In this document: piece by piece, positions 40,506 to 45,957 of the stretch
Position numbering within the stretch: position 1 is the first letter of the stretch
Layout: every line of letters begins with the position of its first letter
IMG/VR virus record: IMGVR_UViG_3300037153_000150
Span: 1-46,092 of that record
Reading direction: 5' to 3' (one strand)
From: a virus
DNA length: 46,092 nt
Position numbers and translations under genes: made by a program
Notes under the pieces: generated by a model
Told to the model about the DNA's origin: nothing
Database searches by the model: none
The model's input: the letters and a program-made list of their open reading frames with translations, nothing else

Positions 40506-41889
40506 CGCGGCTCACTCCTTGATCGATGGGTGGTGTCGTGTTCTGGTCAGGGGGCGGCTGTGAGCCGTTTCCCTGCCCCCTCCCGTCACCGGAACGGTCG
40601 GGCAGAGACTTCAGTCGACGCATACGCTCGATCTGCTGTGGCGACTCCCCGTGCATCGCCCACAGCACCTCCAGCGGGTAGCCGATCGTCTGCAGCTTGA
40701 TCAGCGCGTCGACGAGTTCGCCCTCGCTGCGCGACTCCGGGTCCTGCCACAGCGTCTCGGCGTTCGCCGCCGCGCCGCGCACCGTGTCCCCGCGATACAG
40801 GAAGGCGAGGCGCATGCTCTCCTCCCACGTCTCGCCGAACGTGATCTGCTTGCGCTTGGCCTTAGCCACGAGGCCCGTCTCGGTCGCCTTCAGCGACTCG
40901 CCGGACGGGAACGACCCCGACTGGCCGAGCAGGTAGTGCGGCGGCGTGCGCGTCTGCGCCGCCACGTGCTGGATCAGCACCTCCACCTGTTTGACGTACG
41001 CCGCGCCGTCTGACTCGGCCAGCTGCCCGAAGCGCACCTTGTCGTCCTCGGCCACCCACATGCGTGACACGCTGGACAGGAACTGCTCGCGGTCGAGCGG
41101 GCGCCCCGTCTCGGGGTCGGTAGGAATCTCCAGGCCGGTGGCGTAGCGTTGCGGGAAGGCGATGTACTCGCTGTTGACCAGCATGTCGGCCAGCAGCTTG
41201 TTGACCGCGTCTTGCAGCGGGATAACCACGTTGAGGTCGCTGATGCCGTCCGCCAGCATCGTCGGGTTGTTCAGCATCGGCACCATCGGCACGATCCCGA
41301 TGGCGTTCCCGTAGCCCGCGCCGTCGCTCACCCACTCGCGCGACGACTTGCGCCGCACGTACGGGTAGAACCGCTCGGGCGTGTAGAGGATCGAGCGCGC
41401 CGTCTCGCCGTCGTCGTCCTGCCAGCGCTTGAGCCCCGCCAGGCGCTTGCGACGGTCGTCGGGCGCGGTCCACACGATGCACTGCGCGGGCGTCTCGACG
41501 GTGATTCGCGGCGTGTCGGCGTCGTCAACGTTGGGCACCACCAGCACGTAGGCGATCCCGCTGCGCACCGCCTCGGTGTGCGCCAGCGTCGAGTCGGCGT
41601 CGAGATAGTTGGCCTGCCACAGGTCCCACGCCGCGTCGTCGGCCGTCTCGTCGCCCGAGCCGAAGCGGAACCCGATCACCTTCAGGCGTTCGACCGACGC
41701 GTCGACCACCAGTTGGCACCAGTTGTCGGACAGTTCGGCGAACAACGCGCCGAACGTCTCGCGCCACTTGCTGGTGGCGAACGCGATCCGATGCTGCCCC
41801 TGGTAGTAGGCGGCATAGCGTTCGATCGCGGGCAGCCGCTCGTCGAGCTTGTCGGCCAGCGTCTGCGCGACAGCGTTTGGTGCGGCCAT
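40498..41889 (-). CDS. Portal protein (SPP1 gp6-like)
   Basis: 463 residues. Matches the SPP1 gp6 portal class: N-terminal YAAYYQGQHRIAFATSKWRE, the clip/stem region ALFAELSDNWCQLVVDASVE, RLKVIGFRFG, PLQDAVNKLLADMLVNSEYI, then TRTPPHYLLGQSGSFPSGES and LKATETGLVAKAKRKQITFG. It forms the dodecameric DNA gate at one capsid vertex. Its stop overlaps the scaffold start and its ATG touches the terminase stop. Confidence 0.92.
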   Translation of the reverse strand: MAAPNAVAQTLADKLDERLPAIERYAAYYQGQHRIAFATSKWRETFGALFAELSDNWCQLVVDASVERLKVIGFRFGSGDETADDAAWDLWQANYLDADSTLAHTEAVRSGIAYVLVVPNVDDADTPRITVETPAQCIVWTAPDDRRKRLAGLKRWQDDDGETARSILYTPERFYPYVRRKSSREWVSDGAGYGNAIGIVPMVPMLNNPTMLADGISDLNVVIPLQDAVNKLLADMLVNSEYIAFPQRYATGLEIPTDPETGRPLDREQFLSSVSRMWVAEDDKVRFGQLAESDGAAYVKQVEVLIQHVAAQTRTPPHYLLGQSGSFPSGESLKATETGLVAKAKRKQITFGETWEESMRLAFLYRGDTVRGAAANAETLWQDPESRSEGELVDALIKLQTIGYPLEVLWAMHGESPQQIERMRRLKSLPDRSGDGRGQGNGSQPPPDQNTTPPIDQGVSRDG

Positions 41890-43322
41890 CAGAAGCTCAT
41901 CACCCGGTTGCGGCGCTGCACGAGCGCGCCATCCGCGACGGCATCGCAGCGCGCCTCATACGCGAGCACGGCCGCGACGGCGGCGTCGATCTTGGATGCG
42001 TCGCGGTCCTTGGTCAGCCAGTAGCCGCCGCGCACCTCGCGCATGCGAGCGTTGAGCACGTGCTCGCTCAGCACGGCGTCGCCCGTGTGCGTGCACGTCT
42101 GCGACACGACGTCGGTGCGGAACCGCTCGACGGCGTGAATCATGCGCGACGTGTTGGTGGCCCACGGCGTGACGGCGGGCTGCCCGTACTCCATCGCCCA
42201 GCCGTCGAGTTCGGACTGCCACAGTGGCGGGTCGAAGTAGCCGCGCACGACGTCGTAATGCTCGAACGTCCGCGCGATCGCCGCGTCGACTTGCGAGGTG
42301 TGCACCTGCCACGCGCCCGCGTTCTCGCCGTCCGGTGCGCCCCACACGGCCAGCGGCTGCACGAGACCGTCGTGCAGACGCGACGCGACCAGTGCCGTGC
42401 AGTCGCCCGAGCGCGAGCCGTCGAACCCCAAACAGATGCGGTCGCCCGGCATGATGCGTTCCTGACGGCGCGCGGCGGCGTGCCACTGCTCGCCCGTGAT
42501 CCACCACGTCTCGGACGCCATCCACAGCCCGCAGGCGAAGCGCGCCCACTGCCACGACAGCATCGACGGCGAGTCGTGGCGTTGCGCGAGCGCTTCCAGC
42601 GTCTGCCACGACGCGGGGTTGGCCAGCTTGACAGTGTGCAGGTCGTCAACGTTGTCGTCGCGCGTCAGCGCCCACTCGTGCATCACGTAGCCGCCGTCAT
42701 CCGACCGGGCGCGCAGGTAGCGCCCCTCACGCGCGACGTCGACCAGCCGGTAGGCGTGCTGGCGCATGATGCCCAGCGGCGAGGATTCGCTGTCGCCCGC
42801 CGTGCTAATCGTGATCATGCGCCCGTCGCGCGGGCCGAGGCCGTCGCGGAAGATGCCGTACAGGCCCGCGCTCTTGTGCCGGTGCAACTCGTCGACCAGC
42901 GCCAGCGTGGGGATCACGCCATCGGCGGTGTCGACGTCGGCGGCCAGCACGCGAATGCGCCCGGAGTCCTTCAGCGACTGAATCTCGCGGTAGCCGCGCT
43001 TGACCTTGACGCGCGTGTCCAGGCCGGGTGTGCGACGCACGAATCCCGCCGCCTGGTCGTACAGGATCGTCGCCTGGTCGCGTGAGGCGGCGCCGACGAC
43101 ACATTCTGCATCGGGCGTGACGATCAGGTGGTAGAGCGCGAGCGCCGCCAGCAACGTGCTCTTGCCGTTCTTCTTCGGGATCAGGATGAGCGTCTCGACC
43201 GCCCCGCCGAAGTGATCGGCCAGCATGTTGCGCTGGAACGGCTCCAGCGTCATCGGGTCGCCGTTCTCCAGCACGAGCGCGCCGCAGAAACGCGCGAACG
43301 CGCCTAGTTCGTCAACTGCCAT
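41889..43322 (-). CDS. terL: Terminase large subunit
   Basis: 477 residues. ATPase: Walker A-like PKKNGKSTLLAALA near residue 48 and Walker B-like TLALVDELHRHKSAG near residue 125, followed by a GRMITISTAGD coupling segment. Nuclease: CLGFDGSRSGDCTALVAS near residue 290, the DVVRGYFDPPLWQSELDG block and a final DRDASKIDAAVAAVLAYEA with catalytic acids. It packages DNA through the portal. The gene touches both terS and portal genes. Confidence 0.94.
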   Translation of the reverse strand: MAVDELGAFARFCGALVLENGDPMTLEPFQRNMLADHFGGAVETLILIPKKNGKSTLLAALALYHLIVTPDAECVVGAASRDQATILYDQAAGFVRRTPGLDTRVKVKRGYREIQSLKDSGRIRVLAADVDTADGVIPTLALVDELHRHKSAGLYGIFRDGLGPRDGRMITISTAGDSESSPLGIMRQHAYRLVDVAREGRYLRARSDDGGYVMHEWALTRDDNVDDLHTVKLANPASWQTLEALAQRHDSPSMLSWQWARFACGLWMASETWWITGEQWHAAARRQERIMPGDRICLGFDGSRSGDCTALVASRLHDGLVQPLAVWGAPDGENAGAWQVHTSQVDAAIARTFEHYDVVRGYFDPPLWQSELDGWAMEYGQPAVTPWATNTSRMIHAVERFRTDVVSQTCTHTGDAVLSEHVLNARMREVRGGYWLTKDRDASKIDAAVAAVLAYEARCDAVADGALVQRRNRVMSF

Positions 43323-43779
43323 GACCGCGCCTGCGTTCCGCGAGTTCGTCGACCTCGGCGAACGGGTCGCTCGGCTTGCTGGCCTGCGTCACGTCGGCCG
43401 CGCGGTCGCGCTGGCTGATGCGCGCCCATCGTTCGGGGTAGCCGCGTTCCAGCAGCCACGCCGCCGCCTGCCAGCTGCCGTCACTCGCCGCCTTGGCCAC
43501 GATCGCCACGTTGCGCGACTCGGCGCGCGCCTCGGCCTGGTCGACGTCGAGCCGGAACGCGGCGAACGGCGCGTCGGCGTCGTCGCCCGCGCCCTGGTCG
43601 TACCACCAGCGGGCGTGCGTCTCGCGCACGCCGATCGCCTTGCTGGCGGTGGCGAACGTGTTGCCCGCACGCATGATCGCCACGAACTCGGCGTGGCGTT
43701 CGGGCGTGAGCTTGGCGCGGCGTCCGCGACCGCGCGGCGGCGTGCCATCCTGGGCGGGTGGTTCTGCGCTTTCGCTCAT
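43312..43779 (-). CDS. terS: Terminase small subunit
   Basis: 155 residues from ATG 43779. A basic, Arg-rich N-terminus (PPRGRGRRAKLTPERHAEF) is followed by the HTH-like AIMRAGNTFATASKAIGVRE and THARWWYDQG that recognises the packaging site. The central helix (AEARAESRNVAIVAKAASDG) forms the oligomerisation region, and WQAAAWLLERGYPERWARIS is a hallmark of small terminases. Its N-terminal end overlaps the ASCH gene on the other strand by 22 bases. Confidence 0.88.
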   Translation of the reverse strand: MSESAEPPAQDGTPPRGRGRRAKLTPERHAEFVAIMRAGNTFATASKAIGVRETHARWWYDQGAGDDADAPFAAFRLDVDQAEARAESRNVAIVAKAASDGSWQAAAWLLERGYPERWARISQRDRAADVTQASKPSDPFAEVDELAERRRGHGS

Positions 43780-44114
43780 CGTGGATCGAGCCGATTCGCT
43801 CGGGTGACAAGACGCAGACGCTGCGTCGGGCGGTGGGGCGGCTGCGCCCGGGTGACGTCGTCGCGGCGGTCTGCCGCTACGATCGCGAGCCGTTCGCGTC
43901 GCTGGCCGTCGACGTCGTCGAGGCCGTGCTCGTGCGGGACTTGTCCGACGACGACGCCGCCCGCGAGGGCGTCGCCTCGCGCACGCTGCTCGTCGCCTCC
44001 CTGCGTTCGTTGTATCCCCGCACGGATGCACTCGTGCGCGTGCGTTTCCGCGTGGTCGAGACGGGACCGGTGAGCGCGCTCGCCGTCTCGACGTCGAGCG
44101 GCGCGCCCCGGTAG
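43758..44114 (+). CDS. ASCH-domain protein
   Basis: 118 residues from GTG 43758. The ASCH pattern is clear: the N-terminal I-x-x-G-x-KT-Q-T-x-R signature in EPIRSGDKTQTLRRAVG, a GD element (LRPGDVVAAVC), strands FASLAVDVVEAVLVRDLS, and a final LYPRTDALVRVRFRVVE. ASCH folds bind RNA or modified nucleotides and occur in base-modification islands. It is the only rightward gene inside the leftward late operon, overlapping terS by 22 bases and the GNAT C-terminus by 238 bases. Possibly a moron. Confidence 0.75.
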   Translation: MVLRFRSSWIEPIRSGDKTQTLRRAVGRLRPGDVVAAVCRYDREPFASLAVDVVEAVLVRDLSDDDAAREGVASRTLLVASLRSLYPRTDALVRVRFRVVETGPVSALAVSTSSGAPR

Positions 44115-45217
44115 CGGAACACGGCGTTGGGTCGGCGTCCCTGCTTCCACGGCTTGGTCGCGCCCTTGCGCGCCGCCGCCCACGCTTGGCGCGCCTGCAT
44201 GCTGTTCGGCCCGTGCTGGACAGCGAACGTACCGGGGCGGTGTCGCAACTCCCACATGCGGGAACGGTCGAACGAGCGGATCAACGCGGGATGAGCGGGG
44301 TAGGTGTGCACGTCGTAACCAAGCGCCATGTAGGCCGCAGCGACACGATCGACCAGCGCGAAGGCCAGGCCGAGGCCCTGCCAGTCGGGGAGCGTGACCA
44401 GTCGCGAGACGGCTTTGATCGCCCGGTTACGCGGGTGCGGCCGGTGCAGCACGCCGCAGAACGCGGCCGGGGTCGCACCGATCGAGAGGACGTAGCACTG
44501 CGCCGAGTGATTGAGGTCCGACGTCAGATAGTGAAACGGAGCGAACCGCGCCCATGAGGCGTACGGCTCGCGGCTGATCGTGCAGTCGAGCGCTGGCCGG
44601 GGTTGAAGATGCCTCCAGGTGAACTCAAGCGTCGCCGGTTCCAGCGTCCAGTCGGGCTGCAGCCAGTCGACGACGTCGTAGTGGCACGTCGCCACCACCA
44701 ACCGCATCTTGCGCTTGCGCACGTACCTGCTCACGGCGTGCGCGCCGATCTTCGCCACTTGACGGTCGACCACCGACGTGAACTCGTCGAGCACGATCGT
44801 GCGGTCGGGTTGCGCCTCCGCCAGCGCGCGCGCCAGACCGACACGGAACTGCTCGCCCGTGCTCAACACGTCGTGCGGTCGCAGCCACGCCGGAATCGTG
44901 TTGAACCCCACCGCCTGGCAGACGGCGGCAAGATCGTCGACGCGCATGGCGGCCGGGAAGTCATCGACGACGGCCAGCCCGCTCCACTCGTGCTCGATCG
45001 GCTGCCCGAACGCGTGCGTCAGGATCGTCGTCTTGCCCGAGCCGGACGGGCCGACGATCAGGCCGACGTTCCAGTCGCGGTCGTCGAGCGGAAGCTCACC
45101 GCGCCAGCGCAGCGTCTCGCGGTCACGCAGGGGCACGTCGAACGCCGCGCTCAGCTGCTGCGCGCGCACGGTGCGCGACGGCGCGCCGCCCACCTCAATG
45201 TCGAACGTGACGCTCAT
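43877..45217 (-). CDS. ABC-type ATPase fused to a GNAT acyltransferase domain (Mom-like candidate)
   Basis: 446 residues from ATG 45217, overlapping the ParB-like stop as ATGA. The first 200 residues are an ABC ATPase: Walker A VGPSGSGKTTILTHAFG, a signature-like LSTGEQFRVGLARALAEA, Walker B IVLDEFTSVVDR and the H-loop VATCHYDV. The second half is GNAT-like: RFAPFHYLTSDLNHSAQCYV, SIGATPAAFCGVLH, then the acyl-CoA loop RLVTLPDWQGLGLAFALVD and a closing HPALIRSFDRSRMWELR. The last 60 residues are low complexity where the gene crosses the ASCH gene. ABC-GNAT fusions beside ParB-like genes resemble predicted Mom-type DNA modification systems; the target base is not known. Confidence 0.8.
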   Translation of the reverse strand: MSVTFDIEVGGAPSRTVRAQQLSAAFDVPLRDRETLRWRGELPLDDRDWNVGLIVGPSGSGKTTILTHAFGQPIEHEWSGLAVVDDFPAAMRVDDLAAVCQAVGFNTIPAWLRPHDVLSTGEQFRVGLARALAEAQPDRTIVLDEFTSVVDRQVAKIGAHAVSRYVRKRKMRLVVATCHYDVVDWLQPDWTLEPATLEFTWRHLQPRPALDCTISREPYASWARFAPFHYLTSDLNHSAQCYVLSIGATPAAFCGVLHRPHPRNRAIKAVSRLVTLPDWQGLGLAFALVDRVAAAYMALGYDVHTYPAHPALIRSFDRSRMWELRHRPGTFAVQHGPNSMQARQAWAAARKGATKPWKQGRRPNAVFRYRGAPLDVETASALTGPVSTTRKRTRTSASVRGYNERREATSSVREATPSRAASSSDKSRTSTASTTSTASDANGSRS

Positions 45218-45774
45218 CCGCTGATCGCCCGCACGTTCAAGCCCTCGGCTTGCAGACGCTCCAGCCACGTGGCCTGTTCGACCTCGTCCTCGCACTCGAT
45301 CACCAGCCGGTACTCGACGTCGCCCAGCTGCGGGGTGGTGTCGGCGGGGTCGCCGCCCTCCGCGCCGCTCAGCTGGTCGAGCAGCTGCCGCAGATCGTCG
45401 TCGCCGTAGCCGGTGCCGTCGAGGCCCGCCTCGGAGTCCGCGAGGTGCGAGAGCAGCGCGGCCAATTCGTCGTCGTCGTCGGTGGCCAGATCGGACGCGC
45501 GGTTGTCGACCAGCACGATCCGCGCCGCCGTGTCGTCGTCGACGTCGACGAACGTGGCGGCAAGCTCACTCCAGCCGAGTTCGCGCGCCGCCATCATCGT
45601 GTGGTTGCCCGCCAGCACCTGCATCGTGCGCGAGTTCACGACGATGGGGCGGTACTGCCCGTGGCGCTCCAGCGACGCCTTGAGCACGTCGAGACGCCCG
45701 CGACGCGGGTTGCCCGGGTAAACGTGCAGGCCGTCGATGGGAACGACCAGCGCGTTGAGCGTGTCGGGGATCAC
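45214..45774 (-). CDS. ParB/sulfiredoxin-like protein
   Basis: 186 residues from ATG 45774. The N-terminal 110 residues match the ParB/Srx fold: IDGLHVYPGNPRRGRLDVLK, SLERHGQYRPIVVNSRTMQV, AGNHTMMAARELGW and the Asp-rich IVLVDNRASDLATDDDDELA. The G-N-H-T/R nucleotide loop is present. The rest is acidic with a helical C-terminus. ParB-fold proteins in phages are CTP/ATP-binding and often sit beside GNAT-like modification genes; a partition role is less likely because the phage integrates. Confidence 0.85.
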   Translation of the reverse strand: MIPDTLNALVVPIDGLHVYPGNPRRGRLDVLKASLERHGQYRPIVVNSRTMQVLAGNHTMMAARELGWSELAATFVDVDDDTAARIVLVDNRASDLATDDDDELAALLSHLADSEAGLDGTGYGDDDLRQLLDQLSGAEGGDPADTTPQLGDVEYRLVIECEDEVEQATWLERLQAEGLNVRAISG

Positions 45775-45777
45775 GGG

Positions 45778-45957
45778 TCAGTAGAGCGCGGCGTCGATCT
45801 GCGCACGCACGTCGTACACGCGCCAGTCGACCCCGGGCAGTCGCTGCGGGCGGTACGTGCGCCGCAGATTGCGGCGTCGCGCGTGGCGCAGAACGGTCCC
45901 CGTGGGGTCTGGGGGTGTCGCGTGGTGTCCTGCGGTGGCATGATTTGTCCACGGCAC
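45778..45957 (-). CDS. 59-aa basic protein, first gene of the late operon
   Basis: GTG 45957 has AGAGGAG seven bases upstream; a TTG at 45999 lacks a site. The stop is three bases before the ParB-like start. It is His/Arg-rich (HATAGHHATPPDPTG; LRHARRRNLRRTYRPQRL) and ends in VYDVRAQIDAALY. No Cys pairs, so it is not like the Com zinc protein of phage Mu. It may serve the modification operon. Confidence 0.6.
   Translation of the reverse strand: MPWTNHATAGHHATPPDPTGTVLRHARRRNLRRTYRPQRLPGVDWRVYDVRAQIDAALY

Follow-up and report, generated by a model that had tools for sequence, protein, structure and literature searches.

Several described systems come close to the locus analysed here. Mom of phage Mu (PF25680; PDB 8bv8) is a methylcarbamoylase of the GNAT fold, and in the Dpd 7-deazaguanine DNA modification a ParB-like NTPase, DpdB, partners a DNA-base-modifying enzyme (PMC12839542). 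In addition, Aravind and co-workers (Iyer et al. 2013) predicted, according to PMC7824862, that a GNAT coupled to an ABC ATPase would carry out an uncharacterised acyl modification of a DNA base; the protein cited there is QAX98348.1. The window, which is the whole 46,092-bp IMG/VR viral record IMGVR_UViG_3300037153_000150 (69.7% G+C), carries at its right end, on the minus strand, a gene for a ParB/Srx-fold protein followed by a gene for an ABC ATPase fused to a GNAT domain (ABC-GNAT), accompanied by an ASCH gene on the plus strand. We consider it likely that this module is a predicted in situ DNA-base acyl-modification system acting late, around packaging.

The core idea belongs to the Aravind group, since QAX98348.1, a homologue from Aeromonas AsFcp_2, can be aligned with the window protein over the full length and is of the same family (PHROG 11143). 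In the literature searched, outside of which Iyer et al. 2013 lay, no mention was found of the ParB adaptor, the inverted ASCH slot, the donor and formyltransferase neighbours or the exchange with mom, and these are, as far as searched, new. The likeness to Dpd lies in the ParB-like partner; Dpd differs in working by base exchange through a TGT homologue, with no GNAT and no ABC protein. The parts of the module are as follows.

45214–45774, minus strand: ParB/Srx-fold protein of 186 amino acids (aa) (PF02195; PHROG 723, E 2e-47)
45217–45315, minus strand: C-terminal mini-domain of the ParB-fold protein, about 33–45 aa (hidden Markov model (HMM) hits in ABC-GNAT loci)
43877–45217, minus strand: ABC-GNAT fusion, 446 aa (PHROG 11143, E 3e-91; translation; AlphaFold2 model)
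44603–45217, minus strand: ABC ATPase domain, residues 1–205 (conserved columns; VIA matches)
45026–45052, 44852–44866, about 44783–44800 and 44681–44683, minus strand: Walker A, signature, Walker B and H-loop His179
44102–44596, minus strand: GNAT domain, residues 208–372 (alignment; VIA)
44528–44533 and 44375–44404, minus strand: invariant His229-Tyr230 and acyl-CoA loop R272–G281
43758–44114, plus strand: ASCH protein, 118 aa (PF04266; codon statistics; alignment)

Both halves of the ABC-GNAT exceed their Pfam cutoffs, ABC_tran (PF00005) with 27.4 bits against 25 and Acetyltransf_1 (PF00583) with 24.1 bits against 20.7. The motifs found are Walker A (GPSGSGKT), signature (LSTGE), Walker B (LDE), D-loop, H-loop and the acyl-CoA loop RLVTLPDWQG. 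Relatives were aligned in sets of 11 and of 73; across the 73 sequences the key residues of Walker A, signature, Walker B, D-loop and H-loop in the short ABC cassette are invariant or nearly so, and the GNAT half presents an invariant His-Tyr pair and an R-x-V-x-x-P-D-x-Q-G acyl-CoA loop. The AlphaFold2 model (mean pLDDT 93) has two domains: residues 1–205 match ABC cassettes (VIA Z 14–15), and residues 208–372 match GNAT enzymes (VIA Z up to 15.1, acetyltransferase 1y9k), the fold that is also that of the Mom family. A first-pass annotation, made from the sequence alone, had reported the complete ATPase motif set and a GNAT domain with this loop, and both are borne out, the structure prediction placing the C-terminal half in the GNAT fold.

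The same annotation had called the fusion of the two domains unusual, which is wrong: the family counts at least 595 viral and 425 bacterial-genome loci, and in it the two domains are normally fused. In phages of Streptococcus and Lactococcus they are encoded as separate or frame-split neighbours. PHROG 11143, labelled as of unknown function, matches with E 3.3e-91 (residues 41–399 of the 472-aa open reading frame (ORF) against profile positions 11–352 of 357). A transporter function was rejected, as no permease gene was seen nearby in annotated relatives.

The ParB/Srx-fold gene announced in the first-pass annotation is likewise real. ParB_N (PF02195) scores 27.8 bits against a cutoff of 26.3, and the AlphaFold2 model (pLDDT 90.5) consists of a ParB-like domain (about residues 5–142), a disordered linker (142–152) and then the mini-domain. 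Residues 5–142 are best matched by the CTP-binding ParB structures 6sdk (Z 14.7) and 7bnr (Z 14.3). The fold of this part is thus shared with CTP-dependent ParB clamps such as M. xanthus ParB and Noc (Z 14–15), but the window protein has AGNHTMMAA in place of the canonical GERRxRA P-motif, and its C-terminus is the mini-domain, not a dimerisation domain; TIGR00180 is below its cutoff (22.7 against 58.45 bits).

The mini-domain is recognised by its HMM upstream of ABC-GNAT in 163 of 177 loci, most of which were collected without reference to ParB, with a median gap of 11 nucleotides (nt) to the start of the ABC-GNAT HMM match. It was found in none of 24 control ParB-fold genes not adjoining ABC-GNAT (19 from bacterial genomes and five from mom loci), many of which are good matches to the ParB HMM (down to E 1e-41). 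In Mu-like phages it is free-standing, as a protein of 42–49 aa directly before ABC-GNAT (L007, L009; PHROG 28816). These counts and the free-standing forms suggest that ABC-GNAT has its obligate partner in the mini-domain and not in the ParB domain, and on sequence grounds it is likely to be a dedicated ABC-GNAT adaptor. A planctomycete genome (G002, to which locus L144 belongs) has about 16 ParB-like genes of PHROG 723, most of them of 459–576 aa and extending far past the ParB domain.

The relation to mom is most direct in two Porphyromonas phages, phage011a and phage012a, which are 88% identical over 3.6 kb up to one site and 81% identical over the last 91 nt of their records. Between these stretches phage011a carries a 42-aa mini-domain protein, ABC-GNAT and a formyltransferase, and phage012a carries a Mom homologue:

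L007:3633–5571 (mini-domain protein, ABC-GNAT, formyltransferase) against L180:4896–5710 (mom): allelic exchange in Porphyromonas transposable-type phages

The mom locus is therefore occupied by ABC-GNAT in a relative, not in the window itself, and the swap is a natural experiment ready to use. In contig L262 (2974–4772) mom and ABC-GNAT overlap by four bases (ATGA), and Aeromonas phage PX29 possesses both genes. In Microbacterium phage Appa, L234, L235 and L240 the gene immediately before mom encodes a ParB of the same family. The ParB before mom in Appa (L181:3469–4002) has no mini-domain and ends in a CPSC motif, perhaps a zinc ribbon that serves Mom as an adaptor in the same way.

Of 175 loci, 157 extend 2.5 kb or further downstream; in 117 of the 175 a terminase large subunit (TerL) gene is found no more than 3.5 kb downstream of ABC-GNAT, on its strand. 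The module is thus in most cases placed ahead of the packaging genes, in keeping with late expression like that of mom. In the window, the genes for the terminase small subunit (TerS), TerL and portal follow on the minus strand (Pfam, PHROG), so that the position at the head of the late operon proposed in the first-pass annotation would fit ParB and ABC-GNAT, but not the ASCH gene on the opposite strand. With Mu Mom the ABC-GNAT has in common the GNAT fold, a presumably late gene and the interchangeable gene position, and by eye also the His-Tyr pair after helix 1 and an Arg at the acyl-CoA strand. It differs in lacking the SFAD and Tyr motifs and in having an ABC domain and a ParB adaptor as extras. 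Altogether, a Mom-like role (late acyl modification of phage DNA) is the best-supported reading, on the strength of the replacement of mom, the mom/ABC-GNAT pair, the ParB common to mom loci and the earlier prediction.

In such a DNA-base acyl-modification system the ParB-fold protein would engage DNA, and its flexible C-terminal mini-domain would hold ABC-GNAT. The ABC domain, probably as a dimer and with its ATPase motifs intact, would bind and hydrolyse ATP to clamp or open DNA, presenting a base, and the GNAT half, whose fold, loop and His-Tyr pair were described above, would move an acyl group from acyl-CoA to the exocyclic amine of the base. The job of Mom in phage Mu would be done here by a different GNAT subfamily, and the ASCH protein, separately expressed from the other strand, may read or remove the acylated base or nucleoside. 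If true, this would be a second class of phage DNA acylation, different in mechanism, being coupled to ATP and recruited through a ParB-type adaptor. It would be present in hundreds of phages and prophages of actinobacteria, firmicutes, proteobacteria, spirochaetes and planctomycetes, so far concealed by the labels 'ABC transporter' and 'unknown function'.

Several observations weigh against this reading. PF25680, with which Mu Mom itself scores 253 bits, gave no match to the window ABC-GNAT at E up to 1, and the profile-profile comparison with Mom reached E 0.05, the aligned stretch being exactly the His-Tyr region. Of the conserved Mom motifs HYS, ELNR and SFAD..G..Y, only HY and one Arg could be matched by eye in the window, and 8bv8 is not among the matches listed for the AlphaFold2 model, but as that list is filled by generic GNATs and ABC cassettes, its absence carries no weight either way. 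Membership in the Mom family was rejected on the profile results, so that of the 'Mom-type' system first proposed for this locus the role is retained and the family is not. The swap is one clear pair, and phage011a has neither a ParB domain beside the mini-domain nor an ASCH gene; gene position and replacement show exchangeability, not chemistry. As the P-motif arginines are missing, NTP binding by the window ParB is uncertain, and in several large phages ABC-GNAT comes without an adaptor that could be recognised. The analysed relatives are mostly the closest 160 loci and are skewed to the clade of the window. In the literature, no experiment on any member of the ABC-GNAT family was found.

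GNATs mostly act on proteins or small amines, and the GNAT half could instead acylate a protein (host RNA polymerase, a restriction or a packaging protein) or RNA/aminoacyl-tRNA, with ABC and ParB steering it to a nucleoprotein target. The closest folds are indeed generic and ribosomal-protein acetyltransferases such as RimI, and host takeover by a phage GNAT is known for Rac (PMC7824862). This alternative seems to us unlikely; it leaves unexplained the replacement of mom at the same site, the pairing with mom, the ParB common to mom loci and the ASCH neighbours. Quite improbable is a DNA-handling packaging machine, in which a ParB clamp and an SMC-like ABC head would load onto phage DNA beside the terminase genes, cutting being regulated through the acylation of TerS or TerL. 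The module does lie directly before TerS/TerL in most loci, and its ParB fold is closest to the CTP-dependent clamps, but elsewhere it has no terminase genes nearby, as at the right-hand end of Mu-like genomes and beside replication genes. Moreover, transporter-type cassettes are the best matches to its ABC domain, in which there is no coiled coil.

Even less credit is given to a superinfection-exclusion, defence or toxin-antitoxin unit with the ASCH protein as antidote. The inverted ASCH neighbour would suit such a unit, as would weak PADLOC matches (mad3, E 2e-13; MTase_II, E 5e-13), but these matches cover the ATPase motifs and the ParB domain alone, and both assignments were rejected as motif-level matches. 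Moreover, ASCH is missing from about three quarters of the loci and the module has the position of phage late genes. DNA-base acyl modification is the explanation that we propose for the module.

The ASCH gene scores 29.9 bits with PF04266 (cutoff 21.2) and is thus real, but, being on the plus strand, it lies outside the operon of ParB and ABC-GNAT, with which the first-pass annotation had grouped it. Among 175 loci, 44 have an ASCH gene of one of five HMM groups no more than 700 nt downstream of ABC-GNAT (one locus is entered twice in the ASCH listing); in 39 it is on the opposite strand. On a tree of 153 ABC-GNAT proteins ASCH was gained or lost at least 19 times, supported branches forcing 12 of these changes, and its strand switched only twice; in the closest relatives of the window this inverted position is taken by an ASCH gene of another family. 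An HMM scan found ASCH in none of 80 mom loci and none of 20 control regions, the zero at mom loci being perhaps somewhat low because the HMMs were trained on genes beside ABC-GNAT. Pfam supports the ASCH assignment for families A and C and for genes of the MismyG type; family D narrowly misses the cutoff, and family B, with no Pfam match, was assigned by the motif G-x-K-x-x-E-x-R. The suggestion that ASCH reads or handles the modified base is favoured by this recurrence beside ABC-GNAT, but not by a common operon. The module may offer a function for inverted ASCH genes in phages.

Compared with E. coli YqfB, an ASCH-fold N4-acetylcytidine amidohydrolase, the window ASCH keeps the catalysis-relevant Lys, Thr, Arg, Glu and Tyr and is without YqfB His70 and Asp27. 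In one low-scoring pairwise alignment K18, T21, R23, E70 and Y86 correspond to YqfB K21, T24, R26, E74 and Y89, so that the Thr-Lys-Glu triad (T21, K18, E70) and the Arg (R23) are matched. YqfB mutants at the corresponding positions are inactive or weakened (PMC6972931). The window protein scores 28.5 bits with NF003443 (YqfB N4-acetylcytidine amidohydrolase), below the cutoff of 93. In HMM groups A, B and D, three further ASCH families that occupy this slot, the catalytic Thr is replaced by Glu; a general YqfB-like hydrolase role was rejected for this reason, and a common role in binding, as a reader, is more likely. Hydrolysis by ASCH proteins of the window type is possible, judging from these residues.

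The remaining features of the region are the following.

45778–45957, minus strand: 59-aa basic ORF with a GTG start and Shine-Dalgarno-like GAGGAG upstream
43877–44101, minus strand: C-terminal tail of ABC-GNAT, antisense to ASCH (alignment; codon-position GC)
43312–43779, minus strand: TerS, the first late packaging gene downstream (PHROG 4102, E 5e-24)
41889–43322, minus strand: TerL (PF03354, PF20441)

The end of the ParB gene (..AISG-TGA) overlaps the ABC-GNAT start codon (45217) as ATGA, and the two genes are probably translationally coupled. The module is at the end of the record and the upstream sequence is outside it, so that a late promoter is only inferred. The 59-aa gene was part of the island in the first-pass annotation; the ORF and its GAGGAG stand, but a phmmer search against the 177 related loci gave no relative, and it was set aside as a part of the module. 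By its sequence it may be a leader gene, its membership in the module being doubtful.

The ASCH gene is convergent with ABC-GNAT and antisense to its 3′ end, with an opposite-strand overlap of the two frames of about 235 nt, and the starts of ASCH and TerS overlap by 22 nt. These overlaps leave no space for an ASCH promoter outside coding sequence. Over 43758–44114 codon statistics favour the ASCH frame, and the GC content of the ABC-GNAT tail by codon position is abnormal (0.53/0.76/0.91). The tail has no homologue in the alignment of 11 relatives. Since the ABC-GNAT of relatives ends in F-x-Y-x-G, a motif that in the window falls right at the end of the ASCH gene, the last ~74 aa are best taken as read-through into the antisense ASCH.

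Genes that could supply or tailor an acyl group adjoin ABC-GNAT in some relatives. In phage Jace and in L059, L069 and L129 it is followed by a PanD-type aspartate decarboxylase and then by a CoA-transferase of family III; the CoA-transferase is also present in L108 and L112, and L108 has a PanD gene at another place in the locus. A PurN-like formyltransferase (PF00551) comes after ABC-GNAT in Mariokart, Komp_PAO1_1 and phage011a. In total, PanD and/or CoA-transferase III are present in six loci and the formyltransferase in three; the PanD cassettes and the formyltransferase genes are the following.

L059:1796–2823, L069:1916–2967, L001:5185–6296 and L129: PanD and truncated CoA-transferase III cassette directly downstream of ABC-GNAT
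L003:1799–2446, L007:5020–5493 and L009:5074–5691: PurN-like formyltransferase directly downstream of ABC-GNAT, in Gordonia, Porphyromonas and Pseudomonas phages

The window has none of PanD, CoA-transferase and formyltransferase. These neighbours suggest an amino-acyl donor and would fit a route from aspartate through beta-alanine and beta-alanyl-CoA to the base, or a glycinamide-like group open to formylation, which is a concrete chemical hypothesis for mass spectrometry. Tentatively, and with considerable doubt, the module can be pictured as a self-contained writer-donor-reader system for amino-acylated DNA. The ParB mini-domain would recruit ABC-GNAT, which would transfer, for example, a beta-alanyl or glycyl group; PanD, making beta-alanine from aspartate, and CoA-transferase III would provide the donor in some phages, and in others a PurN-like formyltransferase would cap the free amine; and the convergent, separately expressed ASCH would read or erase the mark, sparing host or prophage DNA. 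As for other possible donors, tRNA genes lie a little upstream of ParB in MismyG (Streptococcus phage, tRNA-Tyr, L004:4314–4392) and Pmp13 (Pasteurella phage, tRNA-Asn, L013:880–955); a charged tRNA as acyl donor was set aside because the tRNAs differ between these two phages.

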